64,000 nt of DNA, taken from positions 48,590,302 to 48,654,301 of the forward strand of contig NC_065537.1 in NCBI RefSeq assembly GCF_932294415.1, written 5' to 3'. The position numbers and the translations under genes were made by a program. The DNA is from Quercus robur (Eukaryota; Streptophyta; Magnoliopsida; Fagales; Fagaceae). How positions within the stretch are numbered: the stretch's first letter is position 1; each line of letters opens with the position of its first letter. Under the pieces are notes generated by a model. That model was not told the DNA's origin and did not search any database. It worked only from the letters and a program-made list of their open reading frames with translations. Positions 25,476 to 62,879 of this stretch are shown one piece after another.

Positions 25476-26095
25476 ATGGCTTTGCTGATCCACAAAGGAT
25501 CCTCGATTTCTTCCACTCACCAATGGAATTATGATGTCTTCTTGAGCTTTAGAAGTGAAGATACCTGCTATGGATTTATGAGCCATTTATATCAAGTTTT
25601 GTGTGATAAGGGCTTTAATACCTTCATCAACAATAGTCTTCCAAAAGGGTAAAGAAATTTCAGCAGAAATTCTCAAAACTATTGAATCGTCAATGATTTT
25701 GATTATCGTATTCTCTAAAAACTATGCATCATCTACTTGGTATTTGGATGAATTAGTCAAGATTCTTGAGTGTAAAAATAATTGCAAGTTGGTCTTACCA
25801 ATTTTTTACAAAGTAGATCCATCAGAAGTATGCAAACAAGAGGGAAAATTTGGGATAGCGTTAGCTAAACATGAAGAAAAATTCAACGGTGACGTGGGTA
25901 AAGTGCAAAGGTGGAGGGTAGCTCTGAGTGAAGCTGGATCTTTGTCTGGATTGCATTACAGAGATGGGTATGTATCTCATGAGTCCTCTCAAGCTTCATG
26001 AGGTTAATACTGTAAATGGCTTCTCATTATTCATAACCACTACATGCAAATTATGAAAGTACTTTATTTTGCATAGGTACATATATATTAGTGTG

Positions 26096-26126
<31 letters not shown>

Positions 26127-26429
26127 TATTAGTGTGTGTGCGCATTGTGATGCATGTGTTTGTGTGTGAATCTTCCTTTCCCACTTGTTGTAAGAAAGAA
26201 ATAATTTTAACATGATTCCTTGGTAGTACTAAAATTATATATAATTGATTTTGTATAAAATTTCCATTCAATTTCTCTTTTGTATTTTTTTGGTTTTTAT
26301 ACTTTGATAGCTGAAGGGTGAGGGTTTCAGACCTTGGATATCTCCGTTAAAACCATTAGGAGATGTCAATTGAACTATAATATTGCTGGCAATAACTTTC
26401 TCTAACACTAGGAGGTACCAATCTCTCTA

Positions 26430-26460
<31 letters not shown>

Positions 26461-28092
26461 CTTAATAGACAAAACTGAGAGAAAATCCAATTAGATTTTA
26501 AATTGGAATTCAATTAAAGTCTAATTTTGTGTCACATGTCCCATCTAATCTAAAATTTTAAATTTTTGTGCCAAGTAAGTTAATTCAGTGTAAAAATTAA
26601 ATTTTAATTAGTGTTTAATTGTGCACCACATGTCCTATCTAATCTAGGTTTTTTTAATTTTTGTATAAAATGAATTAATTCAGTATAGAAAACGAGGAGT
26701 CCAATATATGTAAACCATAAAAAATCATAATAATATATATAACTGTATATATAAAATTAGAAGAAAAGAGAGTTTGAATAATTTTATATTTATGAGCCAT
26801 TTTTTTTGTGTAACTAAAAGTAATTCAAATCTATAAGTTATTTATGTAATAACCATGACTATGTACGGTCCATTATTAACTAAGTAATATATTAAACCAA
26901 AACTTAGAGAAAATTCAAATAGAATCAAAATTGGACTTTGCTTGTGTTAACTTTTCATAAAAATTAAATTGTTTAGATTTTTGTTGTTATTTTTTCTCTA
27001 AACTAATAAGCATATATATTTTTTATATTGTTTCTATTCAGATATTTTGTATGCGAAAATCTTGAACCTAAAAAACTATAATTGAGCTAAATGGTCTCAT
27101 GCACCTATCCCCATTCAATTTAGGAGATACTATTGGAACAATCTATTCTTTTTATTTTGTGTTGTATTTAGTATATTTTCACGTACAATGATTGTGAATT
27201 GATATTATATATGTAGTATCCAATAGTAATTTTCAAAATTATATATGTAATAGTAATGTAATGAGAAACTTTGGATAACTAACATCATAAAAATTGTAAG
27301 AAAAAATTATTTTAATACCTTCAAATGTCCTGGTCAAACTAATATTTTATATATTTAATAACCCATACTAACATTAATAGTACCATAAAATTTATCATTT
27401 CCGTGCATAAACACAAGTTACGTACTAGTCGAACCATAATCCTGTTGGCAATAACTCATTCTCTCTCTCAAAAACTTACTTTCCATTCCATAATCCAGCT
27501 AGTATTGTGTTATAAGGAGGCAATATCTATTTTCTTATTTTTAAATCTTTGAGTCATTCTAGGGGTAATTATTATTGAAAACTTTTTTCTCTTAAGTTTT
27601 ACTCTAATGGTGGATGGTTTCCACATAATTTACTTATATCTTGAAACGTAAATATTTCTTTGAAACATAAATATTAAATTTTATGAACTAATTATATAGC
27701 CAAATTAAAAGATTATGAAGCGTAAACTATTCTTAAATCTCATTTATCATAGTTAATGTTTTCAAATATCTCAATCAAGACATTTTGTAAAATAAATAAG
27801 AGAGTTACACAATTGCCAAAGAAAATTGTTGGTCCCGCAGTTAAAAAAAAGAAAAAGAAAATCTTTGAACAATTTACAAAAAAATTAGCTAGCTCACAAA
27901 AAATCAAATAAATATCACTTTATCATTTTAATCACTCAAAAGAACTTACATAAAAGCCCTTTTGAATATATACCACTATAAGTTTCTTTAAAAAACCTTC
28001 TCCTCTCTCCCTATGTGTGTGTATTAAAAATACTTAGTATTCTAAAAAATAAAATAAAAAAACTTACATAAAGAAAAAAAATTATAATAATA

Positions 28093-28131
<39 letters not shown>

Positions 28132-28747
28132 ACTGGTATAGTGTTTTGGCTGTCTTTAGGACATTCACTACAGGAGATCCTGAATATGGCAAAATCTAGG
28201 TATAGTATCTTAAGTGTTGTTCCTTAAGTTTCTCTTTTAAAATTCAGTCATATAGCTATAGAACTAAAAAATACATTTCCATCTTATAAAAAAAAAAAAA
28301 TCCACGTAGCAAAATCTTAAGAGAGGAATCTAAGAAACATCGAGGAATCTAAGAAACACCACCTAAATACTGTATCTAAGTCTTCCCCTCTTAAATATAC
28401 ATCTCAACCGTTGCAACCATTCACTACCCCACAACCCCTAGATACAAAAACCTATCCACATTCGCTGTAAGATTCTTTAGTTTGTTATACACCATAGAGC
28501 AAAAGCTCCACCAAAGAAACACAATTCTTTGTCCAAAAATAATCTCTACAAAAGAAATACCACTCTATACACATATTCTCCTATAATAGTTGTATATCCA
28601 CTAAGTATAGGAAATGGGTCTCCACTAAGCTTTTTCAATGAATTATCTATAAGTATAACCTCAAAAATTTCAAATAAAAACCCAATTTGACTATCAAAAA
28701 ATGTTTTTTTATTAAAAAAAATATTTAAGTTGCACATTATCTCAAAA

Positions 28748-28785
<38 letters not shown>

Positions 28786-31700
28786 AGTCTAATTCATTAC
28801 ATGCTTCTTATGCTTTGTGATTCGCAGCAATCTTGAATCAAAATTTATCCAAGGAATTATGGAAAAGATATCGAGTACTAAGTTAAAAAGCATAAGGTTA
28901 TTTGTTTCTAAATACCCTATTGGAGTAGATACTCACGCAAAGGCCATAGAAATGTTGGTAGATATTGAGTCAACTGATTTTCGAATAGTAGGGATTCATG
29001 GCCTTGGGGGAATAGGTAAGACTACAATTGCCAAGGCTGTTTATAATAGGATTGTTGATCATTTTGAAAGAAGTAGCTTTTTAGAGAATGTTAAAGAAAA
29101 ATCTAGGACAATCGATGGCATAATACAACTACAAAAGACACTTCTTTATGAGATCTTGGAATATAAAGATTTGAAGGTGGACAACATTTCCAAAGGGATC
29201 AATTTGATAAAGGAAAGACTTCGTAGTAAAAGGATTCTTTTAATTCTTGATGACGTGGATAAATTGAAACAAATGGAAAACTTGCTTGGAAAATGTAATC
29301 GGTTTGCTTCAGGAAGTAGAGTCATTATAACAACAAGAGATGAACACTTGTTATCCATTCTTGGAAAAGTTTGTACAACTTATAAGGTCAAGGAATTAGA
29401 CAAAAATGAAGCTCTTCAACTTTTTGAAAAGCATGCTTTCCTGGGAAACAAACTCGAGAAAGATTATTATGAACTTGCAAACCAAGTTATAAATTATACC
29501 AAAGGCCTTCCCCTAGCTCTTGTAATAATAGGTTCTAATTTGTGTGGAAGATCTAAACTTGAATGGAAAAGTGCATTAGATAAGTATGAAAAAAATTCCC
29601 AATGAAGATATTCAAGAAATACTCAAAATTAGTTATGATGGATTGGAAGGAATCGAACAAGATATTTTTCTCGATATTGCATGTTTCTTCAAAGGATGGC
29701 TCAAGGATCTTGTTGTAGATATATTAGATGCCTATGAATCATATCCCAATTCTGGTATTTCAAGACTTGTTAATAAGTCTCTTATAACCGTTGATCAACA
29801 TGACACATTTTCGATGCATGACTTGATACAACAAATGGGTAAGGAAATTTTTTGACGTGAATCGCCACAAATCCTTGAAAAACGTAGCAGGTTATGGCAT
29901 TACAAGGATGCTCATGAAATACTAACTGAAAATAAGGTATAATTTTTTTTTTTCTTCAAATTTGCCTCTCTTTTTGTCATCATTTTTTTAACATTGCATA
30001 AAACTCATGTTTATTAGTATCATTGTTTTGAATAAAATTTCAAAATCATTGTATACTTTTTTCACTCTATTCTTTATCCAATTAGGGGTCAAACAAAATT
30101 CAAGGCATAATGTTGTATTCACCTAAACCAGTAACAGTACGATTGCACAATGAAGCTTCCAAAGGATGGAAAATCTCAAATTTCTTATAGTTTATAATAT
30201 AAATATTTGTGACGCACTTAAATATCTTCCAAATGGGTTAAGGTTTCTTCATTGGGGCAATTATCCTTTTCCCTTGCCATCCAAATATTGTCCTCAAAAA
30301 CTTGTTGCTCTCGAGATGCCAGATAGTCACATCAGATTGGAAAAGCTATTCAAGCAGGTACGATTATTATAATATTTATAATTTCATTAAATTTATATTT
30401 TTAACTTTGTTGAAAATAAAATTTGATTTTTTTCTCCAGGATTTCCAGTTTGAAAATTTGAAATGTATCAATCTCGAATCTTGTGAATTTATTAAGAAAT
30501 TACCAGAATTATGGACCCCAAACTTGGAGATATTGGACCCTTTTGGTTGTGTAAATTTAGTTGAGATTCATGAATTAGTTGGATTTCTTGATAAGCTTAA
30601 AACATGGAGTCTCTCTTGTTGTGAAAGGCTTAAAATTTTTCCAAGCAACCTCATGTTGAAATCTCTTAATTCTTTTGATCTTGTTAGATGTTCAAGACTT
30701 GAGAAGTTCCCTAATATTCATCCTAAAATGAAATGTTTAAGAGATTTAGATTTGCAAGAGAGTGGTATTAGAGAGTTGCCTTCATCAATTGGATATCTAG
30801 GTGGGCTTACAAAATTATGTCTACGTGATTGCCCAAATCTTAGGCTCCGTTTAGGAGTTCATAAGGGAATGGAATGGAATAGAATGATCATAAGGGAATG
30901 GAAAGAAATGGAATAGAATGGAATGTATTTAAGTAAGGGAATGGAATGGAAAAGAATGGAATAGAATGGAATTAAGTAACCTTGATTGGATGTTTTAAAA
31001 TAAAGGAATGAAAATGAATGGAAGATAAGTAATCTTGTTTGGGTGTAATATGGAGGGAATAGAATGAAATCATTTTATGACAATATTACTATTAGACTCC
31101 TATTTTAAAATAAATGGTTGAATATATAGGGGTATTTTGGGAGTTTTAGTAAAAAAATCATTAAATCTAATTTCATTCCCTCCCATTCCTCCCAATTTTG
31201 GGGGAATGAAAATTTGAGGTTTTAAGGGAATAGAGAGGAATGAGTATTCCCTCCTACCCATTTCATTCCCTCCCACTTAAACTCCCAAACAAGGGAATGA
31301 GCTTTTCATTCTCTCCATTAAAACTCCCAAACAAGAAAAAGGAAGAATATTCTAAAATTATTCTTTTTATTTCTTTCCATTCGATTTCATTCCCTCCTCC
31401 CAAACGAGACCTTAGGGATCTTCCAGACACCATTTATAAATTGCAACAACTTCAGGATTTATCAATTCCTACTACCCGTTTGAGATTTACATGCAATTCT
31501 TTTGATAGCATTTCTGGATATGGGTTTTTGATGATGGAACATCTAGATCTCGGACACTGTCTCAATCTAAATAAATTAGACTTTTTGATGCAGCCTGATT
31601 ACTTCCTTGCATTGAAAAGTATATCTCTATCTAGAACCAATATTATTACCATCCCTGAAAGCATAAGTAGATTTCCTAGATTAGGCTCACTTTCTATTCA

Positions 31701-32729
31701 AAATTGCAAGCAACTACGTGAAATTCTAGGCCTTCCAAAATCGATAAAATGTGTAGATGCAATAGATTGCTTCAAATTGGATCTACAATCATTATTGAGC
31801 TAGGTCTATCTCTTAACTTATAAGCAATTTTGTTACTAACCTAAAAAAATATAATATAATTTCTAAACTGAAGTTTCTTAAATTTTCTAATTGTAAGCAG
31901 GTTGGAGTAATTATGGGGATTTTACCAAATACATCATGTGAAGGTGCAAGAACCAACCTATCAATAAATACACAGTTATCTGATGACTTTGCATCTAAAA
32001 TTGAATCAGAAGATGAGGGCGTTACTTGTTTTATTATAGCACCAAGAGCTGAGATTCCAAAGTGGTGTAATCATCAAAGTGTTGGAAATTATATATCATT
32101 CTGGGTTGGTAGCAAATTTCCAAAAATCGCTCTGTATTGCTCTTGGACAGAATGGGCCACATTAGCATGTTACAGTTTACTTTTACATCAATGGTTGTAA
32201 AAATTATGTCTATTTGAGTAGAACTTTTGAAGAAAATTCTAGTCATCTATGGTTAGTTTCTTTGTGTCATTAGTTTTTACAAAATCATTTGGATGACTCA
32301 TATCCATCCAAACAGAATCATGTTGAGTTTGTATATGAAATCAAACCCAAAAGGTATCATCATAGACATTGTCCTTCTTATAAGCCAAGACCACAAAATC
32401 CTATGGTCATAAAAAGGTGGGGAGTTCATGTAGAATGCATTTGTTGTTCTCACAAATCTGGTATTTCTTACTCTCCATTTCAAAGTGCTAAGTCTTCCTC
32501 AGTCCATGATAACTCCAAACCCCTGCCTTTACTAGCTCTTTTCCCCTCTTCTTCTGCCTCAGATATGGATAGGAGGAATTTCAACAATGAAGGAGATTTG
32601 GGGATTTCAATAGAAACAACAAATATTGCGTTTGACACTCCTTGGAGGAGGGACTTTGATCCTAATGAGTTTAAATTGACTTTACCACCAAAAGCGACTT
32701 TCTCCTCACAATTACAGTATGATGACCCC
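25476..32729 (+). pseudogene. TIR-NB-LRR (TNL) resistance gene, copy A, multiply disrupted and 3'-truncated
   Basis: Exons inferred by alignment to copy B: 25476-25967 (TIR: YDVFLSFRSEDT, then STWYLDELVKILE), 28828-29936 (NB-ARC: GLGGIGKTT P-loop at 29000, LILDDVDK, GSRVIITTRDEHLL, GLPLALVIIG, FLDIACFFKGW, MHDL), 30086-30357, 30440-31803 (LRR) and 31901-32729 (C-JID). Lesions seen: an extra C near 25634 shifting the TIR frame; an extra A in the run at 29589-29595; a stop at 29853 after the MHD motif; loss of a T near 30157; a 569-bp MITE in the LRR exon; a stop at 31801-31803; loss of CT near 32128; and replacement of everything beyond 32729 by a Gypsy element. In the TIR, SFRGED is SFRSED and WCLDEL is WYLDEL. 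It cannot encode a full NLR. TNLs are intracellular immune receptors whose TIR is an NADase. Confidence 0.9.
30843..31411. mobile_element. PIF/Harbinger (Tourist-like) MITE inserted in the TNL copy A LRR exon
   Basis: A 569-bp insertion between TTA (30840-30842) and TTA (31412-31414). Copy B at the same place has one TTA and no insertion. Termini GGCTCCGTTTAGGAG and, as reverse complement, GGTCTCGTTTGGGAG form the TIR. Trinucleotide TTA duplication and a GGSYCCGTTTGG-type terminus are diagnostic of PIF/Harbinger elements. The interior is rich in GGAATGGAATG and CATTCCCTCC-type repeats. It adds several hundred bases to the exon and includes stops, so it breaks the LRR. Confidence 0.93.
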
Positions 32730-33260
32730 TTCGCGTCATCTAACCTTTTCTTAAGTCCGTTCACTATGACCTTGTTAATAGCCTCGGCTTGCCCATTCTC
32801 ATGGGGTAGGCTGGGGTAGAATATCTATTAGTGATTCCCAATTCACAACAGTACCTCCTGAAGGCCTTACATCGAATTGAAGACCATTGTTCGAAATGAG
32901 GGAGTGAGGGACCCCGAACCGGGTAACAATGTTTTTCCAGACGAACATTTTGGCGTCCACATCTCTGATGTACGACAAAGTTTCAACTTCAACCCATTTA
33001 GTAAAGTAGTCAGTGCCAACGAGCAGATATTTTTTGTTCCCTACTGCCTTGGGAAAGGGCCCGACGATATCCAAGCCACACTGAGAAAATGGCCAAGGAC
33101 TGGACAGTGGATTGAGGATCCTTCCTGGTTGATGTATGTTTGGCACAAACCTCTGATACTGGTCACACTTCTTCACGTATTCATGTGCTTCTTTCTACAT
33201 GTTTGGCCACTAGTGGCTTTGGATGATGGCCTTATGAGATAAGGACCTGCCTCCTATATG
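32730..33260 (-). pseudogene. Gypsy integrase fragment, truncated
   Basis: Minus-strand reading gives zinc-finger remnant CDQYQRF, then WPFSQCGLDIVGPFP, LVGTDYFTKWVEVE, KNIVTRFGVPHSLISNNG. After a frameshift it continues with PHENGQAEA and VNGLKKRLDDA up to the junction with the TNL at 32729. The first catalytic Asp (GLDIVG) and the Glu (GQAEA) are present, but the second Asp, normally in SDNG, is Asn (SNNG). There is no integrase C-terminus, 3' LTR or polypurine tract on the left, so the element was cut before or during arrival. Confidence 0.85.
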
Positions 33261-33281
33261 GCTTCCACAAATCCTTTCATG

Positions 33282-34140
33282 TCATTCCTCTAGGATTAGT
33301 TTTGAGGCCTTAAGGTGTACACAGAGCAAGTATGGTCCAGAAAAGGAACGTTTATACAGCTTTTGGTCCTTGGATAACCAGAACCGAGGAGCTTTTCTCC
33401 GTATCTTGTCAACCTTGATCTTCTCTTCGAGCAAGATGTCTTCCTTCAAAAATAGTACTAGAGGGTTCATCCAGCTAGGTCCCACTCTAACCTGATGGAC
33501 ATGGATGAATTCTCTTTTTGTCACTGAGGGTTTGTATAGATCTTCCACAAGGATGACCCAGGGTAAACTTTGAGCCAAGGAGATGGCGAGCGTGGCCAAG
33601 GAGTCAGCATGTGTGTTTCCACTTCTAGGGATATGCAGTAAGCTAAAAGAATCGAAACGTGACCGTAGGCGTTTAATTTGGTCTAAGTATCCTTGCATTC
33701 TTTCGTCTCCTGCTTCTAATTCCCCATTCACTTAGCCAACGACCAGTCTTGAGTCTGAGAACATGTTTACTACTTTTCCGCCCAGTTTTTGAACCATGGA
33801 CATCCCTTCCAGTAGGGCCTCATATTCAACCTCATTATTTGTGGCCGAGAAACCCAGTTTTAGTAATTTTTCGATGGTAATCCTTTCAGGGGAAATCAGA
33901 ACTAGCCCCACTACGGAACCCTTTTGGTTCGCTGCACTATCAACATATACTTTCCAGCATGTGGGCCCTTATAGAGAGATTACGCCAACTGATTTTTCAT
34001 CCATGTCTTGCATCGTTGCTTCTTCTTTTAATGAGGATTCAGCGAATTCAGCCACCAAATCTGCGAGGACTTGGCCCTTGACGGAGGTATGAGGCATGTA
34101 CTTGATGTCAAAAGCCCCTAGAATCGTGCCCCACTTAGCA
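33282..34140 (-). pseudogene. Gypsy RNase H region, broken
   Basis: Minus strand encodes MFSDSRLVVG, a stop at 33732-33734 where related elements have Gln, then VNGELEAGDERMQGYLDQI, FSLLHIPRSGNTHADSLATL (RNase H C-terminal Asp in HADSLA) and the start of the integrase linker. Frames are interrupted several times. The 98-codon plus-strand frame over it is a shadow. Confidence 0.8.
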
Positions 34141-34214
34141 ATTCGCCCTGTATAATCAGCACTCCGAAGTATGGACCTGAGCGAAAGCTAGGTTAGAACG
34201 ATAACTGTGTATGC

Positions 34215-35531
34215 CTAGAAGTAATGGGGAAGCTTTCGTGTAGCTTGAACCACTACTAGGATAGCCTTTTCTAGTAGTAAGTAACGGATCTCAACTTTAT
34301 GCAATGATTTGCTCATGTAATGAACTGGTCGTTGTGCGCCGTCGTCCACTCGTATTAGCACTAGGCTTACTACATGAGGGGCCACAGTGATGTAGGCGAA
34401 CAAGACTTCATCGGCCTCGAGATTGGACATGATTGGTGGCCGGGATAGATATTCTTTAAGTTGTTGGAAGGCCAAAGCACACTCCTCGGTCCATTCAAAT
34501 CCCTTCCATTTATTCATCAATAGGAAGAAGGGTTTGCACCTGTTTGCCGACCGAGAAATAAAACGGTTTAAGGCCGCAATCATGCCGGTAAGCCTTTGGA
34601 CCTCTTTGGGATTTCGAGGTGGTTGTAAGCTATTGATAGCCCTGATTTGATTGGGACTGACCTCGATCCCCCTGTGGGTCACCATATAGCTCAAGAATTT
34701 TCCCGATCCTACCCCAAATGAACATTTAGATGCGTTAAGACGTAGCTTGTGTTTCCTCAGAATTTCAAAGATGTCCCCAAGGTCTCTCACGTGCTCAGAC
34801 ACCACCTTACTCTTTACCACCATATCATATATATATGCTTCAATGCTCTTACCCAACTGTGGCTCAAACATTCTGGTCATCATTCTCTGGTAGGTGGACC
34901 CTGCATTTTTCAAACCAAAAGGCATCACCTTGTAATGTTAGTTTCCAATGGGAATGACAAAAGCTGTCTTTTCTTGGTCGTTTGTGGCCAGTGGTATCTG
35001 ATGATATCCTTGAAAGGCATCTAAGAAGCTCATCCGAGAATGGACCGCGGTCGCATCTACCAACTAATCTATCCGAGGCATAGGGAATGAATCTTTCGAG
35101 CAGGCTTTATTCAAATCCGTGAAGTCTACACAGACTCGCCATTTTCCACTCTTCTTCTTTACCACTACAATATTGGCTAACCACTCAGGGTAAAAAACTT
35201 CCTTAATAGCCCCTGCTTTTTTAAGCTTCATCACCTCGTCCCTAACAGCGTCAGCATGCTCCCTCGACGAGCATCGAGGTGCTTGTTTCTTGGGCGTAAC
35301 GGATGGGTTAACATTTAGATGGTGGCAGATGAAGCTCGGATCAACCCCTGGGGCCTCGTAGGTGTCCCACGCAAATATGTCCATGTTTTCTCTGAGAAAC
35401 CTAATTAGCTCTTTTCTCTCTTGGGGAAGTAGTTCCGAACTGACTTGAAAGAATTTTTCTAGATCAATGCCAACAGCAACCTTTTCTAGATCCTCGCATT
35501 TTGCCTCCTTGGTTAATCCATTACCGGGCAA
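34215..35531 (-). pseudogene. Gypsy reverse transcriptase, broken, with a mutated YxDD box
   Basis: Minus strand: LVVKKKSGKWRVCVDFTDLN preceded by WLANIV, then KDSFPMPRID, a stop at 35064-35066, a DATAVHSRMSFLDAFQGYHQ-type region, a stop at 34938-34940, VMPFGLKNAGSTYQRMM, then EAYIYDMVVKSK, and the RNase H-proximal FEWTEECALAFQQLK. The catalytic YIDD motif reads YIYD (34824-34835). An enzyme made from this could not polymerise. The domain order matches Ty3/Gypsy pol. Confidence 0.92.
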
Positions 35532-35549
35532 TGACAGGGTGACTGATTG

Positions 35550-36137
35550 CTATAAACCCCTTCCAGTAGAGGCCAAGGACTCAGCATTGGGTTGGCATAA
35601 GATGGCAGCCACCATGCACTCTCTGGCCATGGTCTGATTCCCCACAATCTCCTTAACCTGGCTCCCCGACAGGTACTTCACCTTCTGGTGCAGGGTAGAA
35701 GAAACAGCTCCTAAGGCATGAAGCCAAAGTCTAGCCACAATAGCTGTGTAGGGTGAATAAGCATCAACTACAATGAAATCCATCTCCACCACGTCCGAAC
35801 TGGTTTGTATAGGCAGTCTAATCTGGCCTTTTGGAGTAACGGTCTTTCCCTCGAAACTTACCAGAGGGGAATCGTATGCCGTTAGGTCCTCGAGTTTTAA
35901 GTTCAGCCCCTTGTACAGATCGAGGTACATTACTTCCATAGCATTGCCCTAATCTACCAATACTCTCTTAACATCATATCCTCCAATCCTGAGTGTGACT
36001 ACCAGAGCATCGTCATAGGATTGGATGGTTCCAATCTTATCTTCGTCCGAGAAGCATAGCACCGACGAGGCTTCCTTCTTGGCCTTTTTGGACTCCCGAT
36101 TGTTGTCCTCGATGGATAGTTGAGCCACAAGCATCAC
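35550..36137 (-). pseudogene. Gypsy aspartic protease region, broken
   Basis: Minus strand: DDALVVTLRIGGYDVKRVLVD, then a stop at 35949-35951 within the active-site triplet neighbourhood where a Gln codon is usual, then GNAMEVMYLDLYKGL and DFIVVDAYSPYTAIVARLWL. This is the retropepsin-like segment between gag and RT in Tat-like Gypsy elements. A separate 62-codon frame upstream (36137-35949) is its N-terminal half. Confidence 0.8.
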
Positions 36138-36290
36138 TCTGGAAGGACAAGAACCGGTCCTTCCCGGAGCAGCAAGAATGACATTTATCGTGCCTATAAG
36201 AGGTCTTAAGGAGGTGTCTCTTCGAGACTCTGGATTCGCCTATCCTTGTTGACCACTGGAATGATACAGGAGGTGCCTTAATTTTCCTTC

Positions 36291-37500
36291 TTAGACCAGT
36301 TGGTCCAAGTGGTTTCTTAAATTCCTATAGTCCTTGGTGGTGTGCCCCGATTCTTGGTGGTATTGGCAATATAGGTTTTGGTTACGCTTCATGGGGTCTC
36401 CTGCCATCTTATATGGCCATTTGAAGAATAGCTCGTTCTTGATCTTTTCCAGAACCTGATGCACTGGATCTCGGAACACAGCATTGACTGTCTGCACGTC
36501 GGCATATTCGAATTGCCCTGCAAAGTCTTTCCTCGGTTGGTTGTTGTTATTAAATTGGTCCGACCTAAAGTCCCTCCTTTCCTGAGGGATAATCTTTGCT
36601 TTACCTTCACCCAATTGCCGGTCCTCTTCAACCCTTTTATACTTGTTGATCTGGTCCATGAGCTGGCGCAAGCTGGTGATAGGCTTTCCTGTTAGGGACT
36701 TTCTTAAACCATGCTCGGTTGGGAGACCGCTCTTAAAGGTGCTGATGGCAACGTCATCAAAGTTACCCTTTATCTCATTGTACATCTCCTAGTATCTGTT
36801 CGAGTATGCTTTCAAGGTCTCCCCTTCTTGCATGGACAAAGACAGTAGAGAATCCAAAGGCCAATGAACCTTGCTATACGTGATAAAGTGAGAGCCAAAG
36901 GCCTGGGTGAGCTGGTTAAAGGAAACTATGGGTTTGGCTTCAGGCCATCAAACCATCTCATCACTACTGGTCCTAGGCTGGACGGAAATACTTTGCACAT
37001 CAAAGTCTTGTCTTTGGAATAGACGGCCATCCTATGGTTAAACTAACTTACATACTCTACGGGGTTCGTTCGACCATTGTACATGGTGAAAGTAGGTTGA
37101 TGGAATCGCCGAGGGAGCTTAGCCCTTTCTATCTTGCATATGAAGGGTGACTTAGAGATCCGATCCAATATCTTGCTCATGGCACCGTTTACTAGGCCTT
37201 TACAAGACGGACTTTGGTGTCTGCGTTTATGGTGGTGCTCTTCCTCATAAGAAATGGTCTCACTTGGTGGGGTTCTTGACCTTTGCCTATATTGTCGTCC
37301 CCTTTATCATTAGAGGACGTATCCGAACTGGAAGGGGACCACTTCCGTTACGCACGACGTAGTTTCTTTTTTAAGTCATCAATCTCTCGCTACAGGGCTT
37401 TGTTATTGTCTTGCCTTTGGGACACGTGACTTCCCACCCTAGAATGGCTTTTGCTTGTATGGGTAGTACGCACACTACCCTCTCGATATCTCTCTCAATC
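36291..37500 (-). pseudogene. Gypsy gag region, broken
   Basis: The clearest block, 36785-36291 minus, has ISTFKSGLPTEHGLRKSL, LRQLMDQINKYKRVEED, and a zinc-knuckle-like CQYHQESGHTTKD in which the last Cys is Tyr. The CxYHxxxGHxTxxC form is typical of Tat/Ogre-type gag. Directly upstream, a stop at 36789-36791 interrupts a YSNRY-EM segment, and the N-terminal gag up to about 37500 is in several frames. Confidence 0.8.
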
Positions 37501-37631
37501 CCTTTCCCGTTCAAGGTTAAGGAAACTGTCCTACCATTGAGAACTTGCAGGCTCCGTTTGGTGTGGACCTGATTGGTGCGTACCTGATCCCACCATGTTT
37601 AACCGTTGCACTGATTGATGCACAAGTTCTT

Positions 37632-37649
37632 CCCATAGACGACGCCAAT
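37632..37649 (-). other. Primer binding site region of the Gypsy element
   Basis: On the minus strand, directly after the LTR end (ACCCTACA), the sequence is ATTGGCGTCGTCTATGGG. This corresponds to the TTGGCGCCGTCTGTGGG-type primer binding region common in plant Gypsy elements, with a C-to-T-like change in GGCGCC. Confidence 0.7.
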
Positions 37650-38435
37650 TGTAGGGTCACAATTTGCAGCCCAAACTCAAAATGTATGAAGTCTTGGTCC
37701 AATGAGCCCAATACAATAAATTTGTAGAGAATAGGTCAAAGAAATGGGTCTTAATGAGTTGGACAACAGCTAGTATTGAATTACATGACGATTAAACACA
37801 AATAAAGGATGTTGATATCAATAGATTTTCAGTCTGAGGAGGTTAAACCTGTATGTAATGATCACTCTTGGATATCAGAGTGATTTAGATTGCTATCATA
37901 TTTTTTTTCTCTCTATTTTCCGATCCTCTTCTCATGGAGGGTCTCTCACATTACATAGCTCCTTTTAGATCATCTTGATCCTACATTTGTTGATCATCTG
38001 AGTCCCTACTTGAGTGCTCGTCCCATCAGACACCCCTTTCAGCATTCTGTGAGTTATGGTAACCAAGACAGCACTGTTTAGAGGTCTTTTCCACATAAAT
38101 GTGGCCAGAAAAGTAGCTGCAATGCATTTAATGCGGTGGTAGCAGCTTTTCCTTAGATATTTTAAGTTTCCTTCTTTCTCGTATGTTCATGGGACATATT
38201 TCTATTGCTAGAACCTTTTGGAGGGTCACTTTAATTGGTAGAGTACACACTTGGGCTACATTTGTCGTATCCAAAGAGGGATTCCTCCTCGGATCACCTT
38301 CCATTCATCCCCCGCTTATGAGACTTTAACTGGGAATCTCTTAATAACTATTTACTCCTCCTCGGATTTGTCAATGTCCCGAATAAAGCCCAAAGCCCAA
38401 AGCCCAATATATGATCTTGGGCCCTTACCCTTACA
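37650..38435 (-). mobile_element. 5' LTR of the Gypsy element (786 bp)
   Basis: Read on the minus strand it begins TGTAAGGGTAAGGGCCCAAG and ends TTGTGACCCTACA, with canonical TG...CA ends, and is followed by the primer binding site. It shares phrases with the plus-strand LTRs at 45070-45892 and 62117-62879: CCGAGGAGGA, AAGGTGATCCGAGGAG, and a CTACAAATTTATTGTATTGG-type 3' part. The partner 3' LTR is missing. Confidence 0.88.
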
Positions 38436-38457
38436 ATTATTATTATTATTATTATTG

Positions 38458-39044
38458 ATAAGGATAAAAGAGATTGGTCAAGAAAGATAAGCCAACGGTT
38501 TATTAGTGATGGTATTTACTGGGCTGTCAGCCCCTGTTTAATGACTGACGGCGGGATAAAGTGTAAGGAGAGGCACCATAGGCCAACGGGATAATAAAGC
38601 TGAAGGTCATCCTGAAACTGACGGTATGAAGACCGAATGCATAATATAAGCTGACGGCACTAGTTAAAGAATGCTTGCTAACCACGTTTGTGTGTATAAG
38701 TAAATGACTTGCTCTCCACGTTTTGTGAAACCTAAGAGGGATTCCTATATGAAAAGGATCCCGCAAAATACGCCCAAGGAGACTCCTATAAGGAAAAGAC
38801 TTCTACTCCAAGGAAAAGGGGTCAAGCTCTACTACTATAAAAACCCAAGCACCCTCACGAACCAAGGTACGCTTAATTTACCCTCTCTAGCACTCTAGAG
38901 CAGTGAGAATAGTTCTGACTTGACTTTCGGAGGGTATTTGACCGATACCACACCGGTGCTTTTTGCTAGGTCCTTTCTTTTTGCTGTGCAGGTACTATTT
39001 GGAGCGCACGAGAACCGTGTGGCTTACTGATAATATTTTCGGCA
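38458..39044 (+). mobile_element. Second LTR fragment, plus orientation, between two (ATT)n tracts
   Basis: Contains a promoter-like CTACTATAAAAACCCAAG (about 38832) and GTATTTGACCGATACCACAC and ends TTCGGCATCATCA at 39044, all features of LTRs of another plant retroelement family. (ATT)n tracts lie immediately outside both ends (38436-38457 and about 39045-39072). No primer binding site or internal domain follows; the next unique sequence is the TNL 3' flank shared with copy B. Confidence 0.65.
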
Positions 39045-39531
39045 TCATCAATTATTATTATTATTATTATTTGGGATTAATAGCAATAGAAACAATTCCA
39101 AGAGAGAATGACAGTTTTATAGTGCAAAAATTTGATTATTCATTGAGATAGCCGTGCGACATAATTAAATTCTGCAGCTTGGAAGGCCTGTAACCAAAAA
39201 CAATATAAATATTAGAGGACTGCATGCCTATAGCAAGGGATTCTATTCAATGCTTGTGGTTGTCTTTTGGTAATTAGCTCGTATAACTTCTTGGCCAGTT
39301 AAAGTCAACTAATAATATTTTAGTGATCTTTGATTAACCTTGTAAATATTTTGAAACTATTTCTTTACTTTTAGATTAAACTAGTAGGATACATGCAAAT
39401 GATATTTTACATGAGGCCAAAATATTGGCCACTCCAACTAGCGAAGTGCCTACATTGGGTTTCTGACAAAGTGACAATAGAAACAGGACCTCAGTGGATT
39501 GATCTGTGAGATGGCTTGATCATGCACTAAG

Positions 39532-41470: not shown

Positions 41471-41884
41471 ATTATGACACACATAATCATTATCAAAATT
41501 TTTAATTTCCTACCTCTTGATACACAAATTTTCATTTAAATAAGTCATCAAATTGGTACGATTGATGCCCCTACAATATTTTAAGGGTCCTACCTTAATT
41601 TTATTACTTTTTTAACTGAAATATTATTTTATTTTAATGAGAATCTGTCATATCACCCACTAACTAAATAAAAGATAGATATTAAAATCCACTACTATTT
41701 GCTATTGTATATTTAAAACAAAATGAGATATCCAGTTAAAATAAGTATTGGAGGTAAACCATACTTCAATCAAAATTCCAATCATTTCAATTATTCCAAT
41801 GAATGTTATTATTTGATTGGCTAACAAAATTCGATTCCAAGATATCGTTTTCAAATTACTAATCTATATATATATATATATATA

Positions 41885-42137
41885 TAGCCAAAACTAAGAG
41901 AAAATCCAATTAGATTTCAAATTTGAATTTAATTAGAGTCCAATCTTGCATTATTTGTCTCATCTAATTTAAGTTTTTAAATTTTTGTGTGAAGTAAGTT
42001 AATTTAGTGTAAAAATTGGATTTCAATTAGAGTTTAATTTTGTGCCACGTGTCCCATCTAATCTAAATTTTTTTTTAATTTTTATGCTAAGTGAGTTAAT
42101 TTAGTATAGAAATCAAGAGTCCAATAAATAAACCTAG

Positions 42138-42174
<37 letters not shown>

Positions 42175-42780
42175 ACCAAAACTTAGAGGAAATTTGATTA
42201 TAATCAAATTTAGATTTTGCCTTTATTAGCTTTTCATAAAAATTAAATTGTTTAGATTTTTGTTAAGGTCATGCTAACAAGTGCCTTTAGGACAATGGTT
42301 AACAATCAATTTTAGGAAAGTTTTGACACCACTACATATATATGCTAATGAGTATATATATATATATTATCATGTTTCTATTTAGATATTTTGTATGTGA
42401 AGTTCTTGAACGTAACAAACTATAATTAAGTTAAACAATTCTATGCATCTATCCCCATTCAATTTAAGATATACTATTGAACCAATTTATTCTTTTATTT
42501 TGTATTGTATTTAGTAGAATTTTACGGATAATGATAGTGAATTGATATTGTATATGTAGTGTCTAATAATGATTTTCAAAATTATATACATAACAGTAGT
42601 ATAATGCAAAACTTGACAACCAATATCATTAAAATTGCAAGAAAAAATCATTTTAGTACTTTCAAATGTCCTAATCGATCTAATGTCCTATCTATTTAAT
42701 AACTCAAACTAACATCAATAGTACCACTACAGTTCATCATTCTTGTAAATAAGCATGGGTTACATACTAATATATGAATG
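41885..42780 (+). repeat. Extra copy of TNL intron-1 sequence outside any TNL
   Basis: From GCCAAAACTAAGAGAAAATC onward this segment is collinear with 26462-27440 (intron 1 of copy A) and 50571-51490 (intron 1 of copy B): CATCTAATCTAAATTTTTT, TTTTCATAAAAATTAAATTG, AGATATTTTGTATG, GCATCTATCCCCATTCAATT and TATTTAATAACTCAAACTAA all recur in order. No TIR or NB-ARC exon accompanies it. Confidence 0.82.
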
Positions 42781-49532: not shown

Positions 49533-50538
49533 ATGGCTTTGCTGATCCCCAAAGGATCCTCCTTATTTTCTTCCACTCACCAATGGAATTATGATGTCTT
49601 CTTGAGTTTTAGAGGTGAAGATACCCGCTATGGATTTATGAGCCATTTATATCAAGTTTTGTGTGATAAGGGCTTTAATACCTTCATCGATGATAATCTT
49701 CAAAAGGGTGAAGAAATTTCAGCAGAACTTCTCAAAACCATTGAATCATTAATGATTTTGATTATCGTATTCTCTGAAAACTATGCATCATCTACTTGGT
49801 GTTTGGATGAATTAGTCAAGATTCTTGAGTGTAAAAATAACTGCAAGTTGGTCTTACCAATTTTTTACAAAGTGGATCCATCAAAAGTACGCAAACAAGA
49901 GGGAAAGTTTGGAATAGCGTTAGCTAAACATGAAGAAAAATTCAACAATAACATGGGTAAAGTGCAAAGGTGGAGGGCAGCTCTGAATGAAGCTGGTTCT
50001 TTGTCTGGATTGCATTACAGAGATGGGTATGTATCTCATGAGTCCTCTCAAGCTTCATGAGGTTAATACTGTAAATGGCTTCTCATTATTCATAACCACT
50101 ACATGCAAATTATGAAAGTATTTTATTTTGCATAGGTACATATATATTAGTGTGTGCGCGCGTTGTGATGCATGTGTTTGTGTGTGAATCTTCCTTTCCC
50201 ACTTGTTGTAAGAAAGAAATAATTTTAACATGATTCCTTGGTAGAACTAAAATTATATATAATTGATTTTGTATAAGAGTTCCATTCAATTTCTCTTTTG
50301 TATTTTTTTGGTTTTTATACTTAGATAGTTGAAGGAAGAAGGTTTCAAACCTTGGATATCTTCGTTAAAATCATTAGAAGATGTCAATTGAACTATAATA
50401 TTCCTGGCAATAACTTTTGGATATACACCACTGTCAATTTCTTTAAAACCTTCTCCACTCTCCCTTTGTGTGTGTGTTAAAAAACTTAGTATTCTAAAAA
50501 AATAAAAATAAATAAATAAACACTAGGAGGTACCAATC

Positions 50539-50570
<32 letters not shown>

Positions 50571-52070
50571 GCCAAAACTAAGAGAAAAACCAATTAGGTT
50601 TCAAATTGGAATTCAATTAAAGTCTAATTTTGTGTCACATGTCCCATCTAATCTAAAATTTTAAATTTTTGTGCCAAATGAGTTAATTTGGTGTAAAAAT
50701 TAAATTTCAATTAGAGTTTTATTTTGCACCACATGTCTCATCTAATCTAATTTTTTTTTAATTTTTGTATCAAATGAATTAATTCAATATAAAAAACGAG
50801 GAGTCGAATATATGTAAACCGTAAAAAATCATAATCATATATATAACTTTATATATAAAATTAGAAGAAAAGAGAGTTTGAATGATTTTATATTTATGAG
50901 TCATTTTTTTGTGTAACTAAAAGTAATTCAAATCTATAAGTTATTTATGTAATAACCATGACTATGTACGGTCCATTATTAACTAAGTAATATATTAAAC
51001 CAAAACTTAGAGAAAATTCAAATAGAATCAAAATTGGATTTTGCTTGTGCTAACTTTTCATAAAAATTAAATTGTTTAGATTTTTGTTGTTATTTTTTCT
51101 ATAAACTAATGAGCATATTTTTTATATTGTTTGTATTTAGATATTTTGTATGCGAAGATCTTGAACCTAAAAAACTTTAATTGAGTTAAATGATCTCATG
51201 CACCTATCCTCCTTCAATTTAGGAGATACTATTGGACCAATCTATTCTTTTGATTTTGTGTTGTATTTAGTATAATTTCAAGTACAGTGATTGTGAATTG
51301 ATATTGTATATGCAGTATCCAATAGTAATTTTCAAAATTATATACGTAATAGTAATGTAACGAGAAACTTTGGATAATTAACATCATAAAAATTGCAAAG
51401 AAAAACTATTTTAGTACCTCTAAATGTCTTGGTCAAACTAATATTTTATATATTTATTAACTCAAACTAACATTAATAGCACTATAAAATTTATCGTGCA
51501 TAAACACAAGTTTTATACTAGTTGAACTATAATGCTGTTGGCAATAACTCCTCTCTCTCAAAAACTTATTTTCCATTCCATAATTGAGCTAGTATTGTGT
51601 TAGAAGGAGGCAATATCTATTTTCTTATTTTTAAATCTTTGAGTCATTCTAGGGGTAATCATTATTGAAAACTTTTTTCTCTTAAGTTTTACTCTAGTGG
51701 TGGATGGTTTCCACATAATTTACTTATGTCTTGAAACGTAAATATTTTTGAAACATAAATATTAAATTTTATGAACTAATTATATAGCCAAATTAAAAGA
51801 TTATGAAGCGTAAACTATTCTTAAAGCTCATTTATCATAGTTAATGTTTTCAAATATCTCAATCAAGACATTTTGTAAAATAAATAAGAGAGTTACACAA
51901 TTGCCAAAGAAAATTGTTGGTTCCACATTTTTTTAAAAAAAATAATAAAATCTTTGAACAATTTACAAAAAATTAGCTAGCTCACAAAAAATCATATAAT
52001 TTTCACTTTATCATTTTAATCACTAAAAAGAACTTACAAAAAGAAAAAAAAAATTATAATAATAAGATAG

Positions 52071-52102
<32 letters not shown>

Positions 52103-55100
52103 CACTGGTATAGTGGCTTGGCTGTCTTTAAGACATTTTGTGCCACTACAAGAGATCCTAAATATGACAGAATTTAGGTATAGTACCTTAAGTGCTGTTC
52201 CTAAGGTTTTTCTTTTAAAATTCAGTTATGTGGCTATTTAACTAAAAAATACACTTCCATCCTATAAGAAAAAATCCATATGGCAAAATCTTAAGAGATG
52301 AATCTAAGAAACACCAAAGAATCTAAGAAACATCACCTAAGTATTGTACCTAAGTCTTGCCCTCTTGAATATACATCTCAACCGCTGCAACCGTTCACTA
52401 CTCCACAACCCCCAGATACAACAACTTATCCACATTCGTTGTAAGATACTTTAGTTTGTTATACACCATAGAGCAAAAGCTCCACCAAAGAAACACAATT
52501 CTTTGTCCAAAAATTATCTCTACAAAAAATACAACTCTATACACATATTCTCCTATAATAGTTGTATATCCACTAAGTATAGGAAATGGGTCTCCACTAA
52601 GCTTTTTCAATGAATTATCTATAAGTATAACCTCAAAATTTTCAAATAGAAACCCAATTTGACTATCAAAGATGTTATTTAATTAAAAAAAATATTTAAG
52701 TTGCACATTATATCAAAACAAAAAACAACAAGTCTAACTCATTACACCTTCTTATGCTTTGTGATTCGCAGCAACCTTGAATCGAAATTTATCCAAGGAA
52801 TTATGGAAAAGATATCAAGTACTAAGTTAAAATGCACAAGGTTATTTGTTGCTAAACACCCTGTTGGAGTAGATACTCACGCAAAGGCCATAGAAATGTT
52901 GTTAGATATTGAGTCAACTGATTTTTGAATAGTAGGGATTCATGGTCTTGGGGGAATAGGTAAGACTACAATTGCAAAGGCTGTTTATAACAGGATTTTT
53001 GACCGTTTTGAAAGAAGTAGCTTTTTAGAGAATGTTAAAGAAAAATCTAGGACAATCGATGGCATAATACAACTACAAAGGACACTTCTTTATGAGATCT
53101 TGGAAGATAAAGATTTGAAGGTGGACAACATTTCCAAAGGGATCAATGTGATAAAGGAAAGACTTTGTAGTAAAAGGATTTTTTTAATTCTTGATGATGT
53201 GGATAAATTGAAACAAATAGAAAACTTGCTTGGAGAATTTAATTGGTTTGCTTCTGGAAGTAGAGTCATTATAACAACAAGAGATGAACACTTGTTAACC
53301 ATTCTTGGAAAAGTTTGTACAACTTATAAGGTCAAGGAATTAGACAAACATGAAGCTCTTCAACTTTTTGAAGAGCATGCTTTCCTGGGAAACAAACTCG
53401 AGAAAGATTATTATGAACTTGCAAACCAAGTTATAAATTATGCCAAAGGCCTTCCCCTAGCTCTTGTAATAATTGGTTCTGATTTGTGTGGAAGATCTAA
53501 ACTTGAATGGAAAAGTGCATTAGATAAGTATGAAAAAATTCCCAATGAAGATATTCAAGAAATACTCAAAATTAGTTATGATGGATTGGAAGGAACCGAA
53601 CAAGATATTTTTCTTGATATTGCATGTTTCTTCAAAGGATGGCACAAGGATCTTGTTGTAAATATATTAGATGCCTTTGAATCATATCCAAATTCTGGTA
53701 TTTCAAGACTTGTTAATAAGTCTCTTATAATTGTTGATCAACATGACACATTTTCGATGCATGACTTGATACAACAAATGGGTAAGGAAATTGTTCGCCG
53801 TGAATCGCCACAAATCCTCGGAAAGCGTAGCAGGTTATGGCATTATAAGGATGCTCATGAAATACTAACTGAAAATAAGGTAAAATTACTTTTTTCTTCA
53901 AATTTGCCTCTTTTTTTGTCACCATTTTTTTTAACATTGCATAAAACTCATGTTTATTAGTATCATTTTTTTTTAATAAAATTTCAAAACCATTGTATAC
54001 TTATTTCAATCTATTCTTTATCCAATTAGGGGTCAAACAAAATTCGAGGCATAATGTTGTATTCGCCTAAACCAGTTACAGTACAATTACACAACGAAGC
54101 TTTCCAAAGGATGGAAAATCTCAAATTTCTTATAGTTTATAATATAAATATTTGTGAACCACTTAAATATCTTCCAAATGGGTTAAGGTTTCTTCATTGG
54201 GGTAATTATCCTTTTCCCTTGCCATCCAAATATTGTCCTCAAAAACTTGTTGCTCTCGAGATGCCAGGTAGTCAAATCAAATTGGAAAAGCTATTCAAGC
54301 AGGTATGATTATTATAATATTTATAATTTCATTAAATTTATATTTTTAACTTTTTTGAAAATAAAATTTGATTTTTTTTCCAGGATTTCCAATTTGAAAA
54401 TTTGAAACGTATCAATCTCGAATCTTGTGGATTTATTAAGAAATTACCAGAATTATGCACCCCAAACTTGGAGATATTGGATCTTTTTGGTTGTGTAAAT
54501 TTAGTTGAGATTCATGAATCAGTTGGATTTCTTGATAAGCTTAAAACATGGAGACTCTCTTGTTGCGAAGGGCTTAAAATTCTTCCAAGTAACCTCATGT
54601 TGAAATCTCTTAATTCTTTTGATCTTTTTAGATGTTCAAGTCTTGAGAAGTTCCCTAATATTCATCCTGAAATGAAATGTTTAAGAGATTTAGATTTGCA
54701 AGAGAGTGGTATTAGAGAGTTGCCTTCATCAATTGGATATCTAGGTGGGCTTACAAAATTATGCCTACGTGATTGCCCAAATCTTAGGGATCTTCCGGAC
54801 ACCATTTCTGGATATGGATTTTTGATGATGGAACATCTAGATCTCAAACACTGTCTAAATCTAAATAAATTAGACTTTTTGATGCAGCCTAATTACTTCC
54901 CTGCATTGAAAAGTATATCTCTATCTAGAACCAATATTATTACCATTCCTGAAAGCATAAGTAGATTTCCTAGATTAATCTCACTTTCTATTCAAAATTG
55001 CAAGCAACTACGTGAAATTCTAGGCCTTCCAAAATCGATAAAATGTGTAGATGCAACAGATTGCTTCAAATTGGATCTACAATCATTATTGAGTCAGGTC

Positions 55101-56151
55101 TATCTCTTAACTTATTAGCAATTTTGTTACTTCCCTAAAAAAATATAGTATGCTTTCTAAACTGAAGTTTATTAAATTTTCTAATTGCAAGCAGGTTGAA
55201 GTAATTATGGGGATTTTACCAAATACATCATGTGAAGGTGCAGGAACCAACCTATTAATAAATACACAGTTATCTGATGACTTTGCATCTAAAACTGAAT
55301 CAGAAGATGAGGGCATTACTTGTTTTATTATAGCACCAGGAGCTGAGATTCCAGAGTGGTGTAATCATCGAAGTGTTGGAAATTACATTTCATTCTGGGT
55401 TGGTCGCAAATTTCCAAAAATCGCTCTCTGTATTGCTCTTGGACAGAATGAGCCACATCAGCATGTTGCAGTTTACTTTTACATCAATGGTCGTGGAAAA
55501 TATGTCTATTTGAGAAGAACTTTTGAGGAAAATTCTAGTTATCTATGGTTAGTTCCTTCGTGTCGTTCGTTTTTACAAAATCATTTGGACGTCTCATATC
55601 CATCCGAACAGAATCTTGTTGAGTTTGTATATGAAATCAAACCCAAAAGGTGTCATCGTAGACATTGTCCTTCTTATAAGTCAAGACCACAAAATCCTAC
55701 GGTCATCAAAAGGTGGGGAGTTCATGTAGAATGCATTTGTTGTCCTCACAAATCTGGTATTCCTTACCTTCCATTTCAAAGTGCAGAGTCTTCCTCAGTC
55801 CATGATAACTCCAAGCCCCTGCCTTTACTAGCTTTTTTCCCCTCTTCTTCTGCGTCAGATATGGATAGGAGGAATTTCAACAATGAAGGAGATTTGGGGA
55901 TTTCAATAGAAACAACAACTATTGCGTTTGACACTGCTTGGAGGAGGGACTTTGATCCTGATGAGTTTAAATTGACTTTACCACCAAAAGCGATTTTCTC
56001 CTCACAATTACAATATGATGACCCCTGCTGGTGTCAAAAAACCAAATATGAGTCTCCAGGGTGTATTTTAGTGAATGCTGGTGGGTTTTCTTTGGTCGCT
56101 GATGGTGCTGAGCTCCCACTTTTACTACATCGTTCTCCCACTTGGTTTTGA
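49533..56151 (+). pseudogene. TNL resistance gene, copy B: nearly intact, with one premature stop before the P-loop
   Basis: Exons by GT-AG and frame: 49533-50026 (TIR: YDVFLSFRGEDTRYGF, SENYASSTWCLDELVKILE, with the catalytic Glu in CLDEL), 52772-53879 (NB-ARC), 54030-54302 and 54384-55097 (LRR; IPSSIGYLGGL-type repeats) and 55195-56151 (C-JID: PGAEIPEWCNHRSVGNYISF). All four junctions keep the frame (phase 2, then 0, 0, 0). NB-ARC motifs: GLGGIGKTT at 52944, FLENVKEKS, LILDDVDKL, GSRVIITTRDEHLL, GLPLALVIIG, FLDIACFFKGW, SMHDL. The lesion: TGA at 52926-52928 where copy A has CGA, a CpG transition. As it stands the mRNA would encode a TIR plus linker of about 216 residues, a TIR-only form; readthrough or an allele with CGA would give a full NLR. 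The LRR is 26 residues shorter than in copy A. Listed as a pseudogene because of the stop, but it may be functional as a TIR protein. Confidence 0.88.
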
Positions 56152-62116: not shown

Positions 62117-62879
62117 TGTAGGGATAAAGGCCCAGAATAACATGTTGGGCCTTGGACTTTTGTCCGAGAACGCTGAATTGTCCAAGGAGGAGCAAGTAGT
62201 TATTAGGGGTCCTCAGTGAAAGTCTTATAAGTGAGGAACGAACGGAAGGTGATCCGAGGAGAAGCTCCTCCTCAAATATGATGAATGCAGCTCAAGCATA
62301 TATTCCAGCAACTAAGGTAACCCTCCAAGAAGCTTCAGCGATAGGAACATGTCTCATGAATGTGCAAGAAGGAAGAAAACTCAAAAATATCTAAAGGAAA
62401 ACTGCTACCACCGCATTAAATGCACTACAGCTACTTTTCTGGCCGCATTTTTGTGGAGAAGACCTCTGAACAGTGCTATCTTGGCAAACGCAACTCACAG
62501 AAAGCCAAAGAAGGTGTCTGATGGGACAAGTACTCAAGTAAGGGCTCAGATGATCAACAAGTGTAGAATCAAGATGGTCCAGAGAGGGCTATATAACGTG
62601 AAAGACCCTTCATGGAGGAAAAAAAAATTGTGAACAACTCTATAATAAAGCTTTAAGAGTAAACATTTAAGAATTAGTATCCTCGGACCAATCCGAGAAC
62701 GTTATTCCTTAATAAACTTCTGTTATCTTTCTCTTTTTAGCATCAAAACCTGTTTTTCTGTTATCTGATTCATGAGAGCCTAGTTTTCCAACCCATTCTC
62801 TACAAATTTATTGTTTTGGGCTGTTTTGGGCTAAAGTCCATATACCCATTGGGCTAGAAGTCCAAATCAGGTCCTTACA
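62117..62879 (+). mobile_element. LTR (763 bp), third member of the 37650/45070 family
   Basis: Begins TGTAGGGATAAAGGCCCAG and ends CAGGTCCTTACA. Shares AAGGTGATCCGAGGAG, AGTTATTAGGGGTCCTC-type and CTCTACAAATTTATTGTTTT phrases with the other two. Flanks TCTGT and CACAT do not match, so this LTR is either rearranged or part of a truncated element. A LINE fragment starts about 25 bp downstream. Confidence 0.82.

Follow-up and report, generated by a model that had tools for sequence, protein, structure and literature searches.

A TNL gene of Quercus robur, referred to here as copy B, is probably a receptor gene that was kept under constraint at full length until, late in its history, a CGA codon between TIR and NB-ARC became TGA and disabled it, judging from its exons and those of its paralogues. 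It would then be a young null allele, possibly one that is segregating. The gene lies in a stretch of 64,000 nucleotides (NC_065537.1:48590302-48654301), called the window here, which holds two tandem TNL copies, A and B. They are about 24 kb apart and 90-95% alike over their main aligned blocks.

Anatomy of copy B and origin of its stop codon

The five exons of copy B indeed join in frame with GT-AG borders, as claimed by the first-pass annotation of this DNA, and give a single frame, with the natural stop as the last of its 1182 codons (Table 1). Pfam searches exon by exon placed TIR, NB-ARC and LRR in this one GT-AG gene, as expected for a TNL gene, and the best solved match of the NB part is ROQ1 (E = 1.6e-69). 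The match of exon 5 to C-JID (PF20160) is below threshold (E = 3.2e-4, 21.4 bits against a cut-off of 24.1). What copy B does not have is one open full-length frame. The TGA at codon 217 is its sole internal stop, frameshifts are absent, and the stop is located six codons before the P-loop, which starts at codon 223; this position had been given correctly in the annotation.

Table 1 Features of the two TNL copies (positions in the window)
Feature	Position	Strand	Description
Copy B exon 1	49533..50026	+	TIR domain; residues 1-164 complete, codon 165 with its first two bases; Pfam TIR PF01582, 1.5e-53
Copy B intron 1	50027..52771	+	2745 bp
Copy B exon 2	52772..53879	+	Linker, TGA, then NB-ARC (4.4e-30) and winged-helix domain WHD_ROQ1 (5.2e-22); Pfam
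TGA, codon 217	52926..52928	+	Derived from CGA (state of copy A and paralogues P1 and P2)
Copy B exon 3	54030..54302	+	Between NB-ARC/WHD and LRR; matches ROQ1 547-612
Copy B exon 4	54384..55097	+	LRRs; 78-nt loss at about 54802/54803
Copy B exon 5	55195..56151	+	Post-LRR/C-JID region; natural stop 56149-56151
Copy A codon matching codon 217 of copy B	28982..28984	+	CGA (Arg)
Copy A, decayed tandem copy	25476..32730	+	Carries four indels that shift the frame, four in-frame stops and an insertion of 572 bp; retroelement sequence in place of the 3' end

The stop is not the only change, and the earlier description of copy B as one transition away from intact was too generous. Copy A has 78 nt (31432-31509) coding for 26 LRR residues that are absent from copy B; a short CATTT repeat adjoins. 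The six best protein matches outside the window span this stretch, from the first query residue, so the loss belongs to copy B. In addition, a derived S73L is seen in the TIR of copy B; 30 of 31 paralogues have Ser at this residue, as do RPV1, RUN1 and ROQ1. When the replacements in the NB part were polarised with paralogues, 12 were B-derived and 11 A-derived; therefore, copy B has changed there too. At the 45 residues of the TIR and NB parts in which the copies differ, the residue of the solved relatives is present in copy B in 15 cases, in copy A in 3, in both in 5 and in neither in 22.

The other copy had been said to read CGA at the position of the stop, and it does. A search of the 786-Mb assembly for NB-ARC gave at least 125 matches, 123 of them outside the window, and the best 40 of these 123 were examined. 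P1, the best match outside the window among the matches listed (C35:46280691, 72% identical), and its C35 neighbour P2 both have CGA; P3, on C41, has CGC. Among the best 40 of the 123, codon 217 is CAT in 12, CGC in 10, CGA, CGG and CAC in 4 each, CGT and TGC in 2 each, and AGA and CCC in one each. Stops are absent from all of these 40, both at codon 217 and in the linker codons that were aligned (mostly 168-222). Since copy A, P1 and P2 have CGA and all 40 paralogues examined are free of a stop here, the change is, on this comparison, one that took place on the branch of copy B. Copy B thus carries a disabling change relative to its ancestor, as is typical of a pseudogene. Stops at other places do occur in the family. 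Within the same best 40 of 123, the NB exon of 3 contains a stop at another codon; 32 have a TIR exon within 3.5 kb upstream of the NB match, and one of these 32 TIR exons is interrupted by a stop. Among the matches listed, 10 of 125 have stops within the matched NB part (counted by eye).

Grouped by type, codon 217 is CGN or AGA in 21, CAT or CAC in 16, TGC in 2 and CCC in one of these best 40 of 123, and the His group is possibly a single clade. The CpG of this codon may be a site of repeated change in the TNL family, with the third base setting whether His, Cys or a stop results.

The annotation had taken the CpG-to-TpG change as the signature of a methylated cytosine. The class of the change does fit: in the comparison of copies A and B, transitions at CpG outnumber other C/G transitions 3.8-fold per site. 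However, it is not the class to be expected, as, of the mutational weight summed over every change that creates a stop in the copy B frame, CpG transitions make up only 6.5%. We therefore rejected the CpG as proof of cause; it describes the change and leaves its place unexplained. On the B branch, 5 of the 47 polarised changes in exons 1-4 (stop left out) are CpG transitions. With the same mutational weights, the chance that a stop falls into the linker (codons 167-222) is about 5.4%; the location of the stop is mildly suggestive only.

Age of the stop and selective constraint

The introns of copies A and B differ by 6.1-6.6%. A simulated unconstrained branch of equal length acquired 5.8 new stops (sd 2.4), with a probability of 0.019 for at most one. 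From intron indel rates, based on 14 indels counted by eye, 7.3 frameshifts are expected, and the exons of copy A show 4. As copy B shows a single stop and is free of frameshifts, against 5.8 stops and 4 to 7.3 frameshifts expected, it was apparently broken recently. From stops and frameshifts together, the maximum-likelihood estimate of the unconstrained share of the B branch is 0.08-0.10, with a 95% upper limit of 0.36-0.48.

Substitutions lead to the same reading. Differences between the copies were polarised with P1-P3 first and the remaining loci as fallback; 55 of 165 were ambiguous and dropped, 48 of these in exon 5. In exons 1-4 the B branch has 27 N and 20 S changes (47 in total, stop left out), the A branch 41 N and 20 S changes plus two stops. 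The neutral N share was computed in two ways, from site counts and from the intron mutation spectrum with its transition and CpG bias. The N share of the B branch is below neutral (p = 0.0005 by site counts, p = 0.008 by intron spectrum), and for copy A the values are p = 0.016 and p = 0.12, respectively; switching to the intron spectrum weakened the p values and left the reading the same. By parts, copy A gives w of 0.46-0.64, and N:S does not differ between copies A and B (p = 0.32). Part of the constraint signal may thus stem from the period before the first loss, when both copies were constrained.

The part of copy B after the stop (exons 2-4; 20 N, 16 S) has a w of 0.32 by site counts (p = 0.001) and of 0.42 by intron spectrum (p = 0.0095). 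The TIR and linker (7 N, 4 S) have a w of 0.44 or 0.62, respectively, and with 11 changes this part alone does not depart from neutrality (p = 0.32, intron spectrum). We considered that the TIR was kept while the rest decayed, and rejected this: N:S does not differ between the two parts, either pairwise (p = 1.0) or on the B branch (p = 0.74), although power is low with only 11 of the 47 changes in TIR and linker. In these comparisons nothing singles out the TIR of copy B as maintained by selection. Exon 5 gives no sign of constraint: it has a pairwise w of 1.11 over 274 codons, and all 48 of its differences are ambiguous when polarised.

Given the constraint on exons 1-4, copy B most likely was a functional full-length receptor during the greater part of its branch, that is, for most of the time since its split from copy A. 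The constraint after the stop appears to bear on the age of the stop more than on function; the stop would be too young for decay to show. A similar case is DM10 of Arabidopsis, a stop-truncated TNL with little post-stop decay, which is read as a recent event in PMC7826191; several stop-truncated alleles are reported there to be present in the population. The DM10 risk-allele stop differs in that it removes part of the LRR and the post-LRR region and not the NB-ARC domain, and population data are available for DM10 as opposed to one assembly here (PMC7826191).

Predicted transcript fate and a possible latent TIR-only product

The last exon junction follows the stop by 1938 nt, with three introns in between, and the spliced mRNA of copy B is therefore predicted to be a substrate of NMD. 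Premature-stop TNL transcripts are described as NMD targets (PMC9153377, PMC8116057), and NMD is reported to keep TNL transcripts low (PMC9153377). The spliced mRNA of copy B would be degraded, and the gene would give no full-length receptor. A TIR-only protein of 216 or 175 aa could still come from mRNA that NMD leaves intact or that is terminated prematurely in intron 1 or exon 2. The shorter form would be independent of the TGA: with intron 1 retained, translation would reach a stop at 50058-50060 after 175 aa. An AATAAA hexamer is absent from the remaining 951 nt of exon 2 downstream of the stop, but this is one hexamer only and exon 2 may still contain a poly(A) site.

This leads to the strongest alternative, which we nevertheless consider rather unlikely: copy B would now be a TIR-only gene whose 216 residues, made from NMD-escaping or early-polyadenylated transcripts, self-associate, hydrolyse NAD+ and signal via EDS1. 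The predicted product is of the right kind. It contains a complete TIR (residues 19-185) and no NB-ARC, as in TIR-only (TX) proteins, and its best solved matches are the TIRs of RPV1 (E = 1.5e-54), RUN1 (E = 2e-50) and ROQ1. The first-pass annotation had predicted about 216 residues keeping the catalytic Glu of CLDEL; this holds, with the stop at codon 217 and E93 in WCLDEL as the Glu. The RPV1 TIR (residues 1-193) alone is reported to cause cell death in tobacco, and this requires R36, D41, H42, W94, C95, P121, R125 and G161 (PMC5143477). The product of copy B extends about 24 residues beyond this autoactive fragment and, by alignment to the list in PMC5143477, keeps seven of the eight residues (R32, H38, W89, C90, P116, R120 and G159); the Trp of RPV1 was matched by motif, as it falls at 93 and not 94 when counted from R36 in the alignment. 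The eighth, D41 of RPV1, corresponds to S37, a position with Ser in 14 and Gly in 17 of the 31 paralogues. Catalytic Glu and most self-association residues of a TX protein are therefore present at the sequence level. The stop in the linker also fits a TIR-only gene, and there is a precedent in AT5G40060 (PMC8116057).

On the other side, the part after the stop is constrained at least as much as the TIR part, NMD is predicted, and the TIR has the derived S73L; the lack of AATAAA in exon 2 after the stop also speaks against a TIR-only gene, but weakly. Activity of the 216-aa product is plausible, with S73L as the main doubt. The suggestion that a TIR-only product is made, selectively kept or active is thus unsupported, in view of the predicted NMD, of a constraint after the stop that equals or exceeds that on the TIR, and of S73L.

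A more specific proposal is that copy B is a TIR-only gene gated by NMD, silent as long as NMD operates and giving a burst of the 216-residue TIR when pattern-triggered immunity shuts NMD down, the allele persisting for that output and not for the lost receptor. In a review (PMC9153377), perception of flg22 is predicted to uncover truncated TIR forms by suppressing NMD. We regard it as improbable for copy B.

Equally doubtful is that the TGA is an assembly or base-calling error, with a methylated CpG read as TpG or haplotypes merged, and that the living plant carries CGA. This would fit a CpG transition in an otherwise open frame, the call rests on a single base in one assembly, and the T of the TGA lengthens a T run (TTTTT), so that the site is not free of a homopolymer. 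However, the difference is a single substitution and not an indel, and copy A, 24 kb away in the same assembly, reads CGA. That a full-length receptor is still made, by read-through of the stop or by splicing round it, is very improbable in spite of the open downstream exons, since the first in-frame AG acceptor past the stop starts an exon at 52994 and so removes the P-loop, the first in-frame Met downstream is codon 494, and the base after the stop is A, which is not known as a strong context for read-through.

Several observations count against the preferred reading, a full-length TNL lost late: the stop is in the inter-domain linker, for which the chance is about 5%, and it leaves a complete TIR with E93 and seven of the eight required residues. 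The values for exon 5 and for copy A given above weigh in the same direction. The latent TIR-only protein of such an allele would carry an NADase-type active-site motif, as has been proposed for AT5G40060. The latter is an Arabidopsis TNL in which a premature stop separates TIR from NB-ARC, and according to PMC8116057 an early-polyadenylated transcript may yield a TIR-only protein. A stop of this kind between TIR and NB-ARC is therefore already in print, and a literature search (titles and abstract starts) brought up no further published case with this anatomy. Both genes have a TIR frame upstream of a large NB-ARC/LRR frame; they differ in that a transcript is described in PMC8116057, whereas copy B is described from its sequence and is likened to AT5G40060 by anatomy. 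The TIRs of grape RPV1 and RUN1 (5ku7, 6o0w), the closest solved sequences, have the FRGEDTR and WCLDEL motifs in common with copy B; they come from TNL resistance genes and have Ser in place of L73, and RPV1 has D41 in place of S37. The Arabidopsis TIR-only proteins RBA1 and TX14, used as residues 1-191 and 1-220 in PMC10972746, are of similar size and likewise have a TIR without NB-ARC, but these are tested proteins, whereas the truncation in copy B is due to one late stop in a TNL that is otherwise under constraint.

The review mentioned above (PMC9153377) proposes that early-stop TNL transcripts yield cryptic TIR-only proteins under NMD suppression. Copy B, with its single clean linker stop, its full TIR and downstream exons that are otherwise open, would be a tidy natural test of this. 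Should it be no more than a young null allele, it would be a case of ordinary birth and death within a resistance-gene family.

Copy A and its surroundings

Copy A has 10 lesions, as compared to the one stop of copy B, and its TIR has lost R32, C90 and R120. The insertion in its exon 4 (30840-31411, 572 bp) has TTA flanks and inverted ends, and resembles a MITE of the PIF/Harbinger type. In place of the 3' end there is retroelement sequence (32731-39072) with matches to reverse transcriptase and RNase H on the minus strand. A direct repeat of more than 40 nt was not found in 32400-39400. On the copy A side, homology with the region downstream of copy B starts again at 39073 (about 56892). The segments 37933-38341 and 62205-62614 are connected by inverted pairs, one of 231 nt with 84% complementarity and one of 182 nt with 73%; one arm is in the retroelement stretch, and the pairs are perhaps a related long terminal repeat.

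The stretch at 41862-42721, between the two copies, matches intron 1 (about 81%) and was considered as a remnant of a third TNL copy. This was rejected, as there is no TNL protein match in it (E up to 0.01). The intron-1 stretch also matches C5:41198655, C39:17344477 and C5:27795411, where the nearest NB-ARC among the matches listed is 0.9 to 27 Mb away. Because these matches are so far from the listed NB-ARC matches, 41862-42721 is, by its distribution, a dispersed repeat that is carried in intron 1 of both TNL copies. Near the start of the window, an F-box protein gene with an F-box-associated domain (FBA_3, 2.9e-10) is present at 1197-2357.
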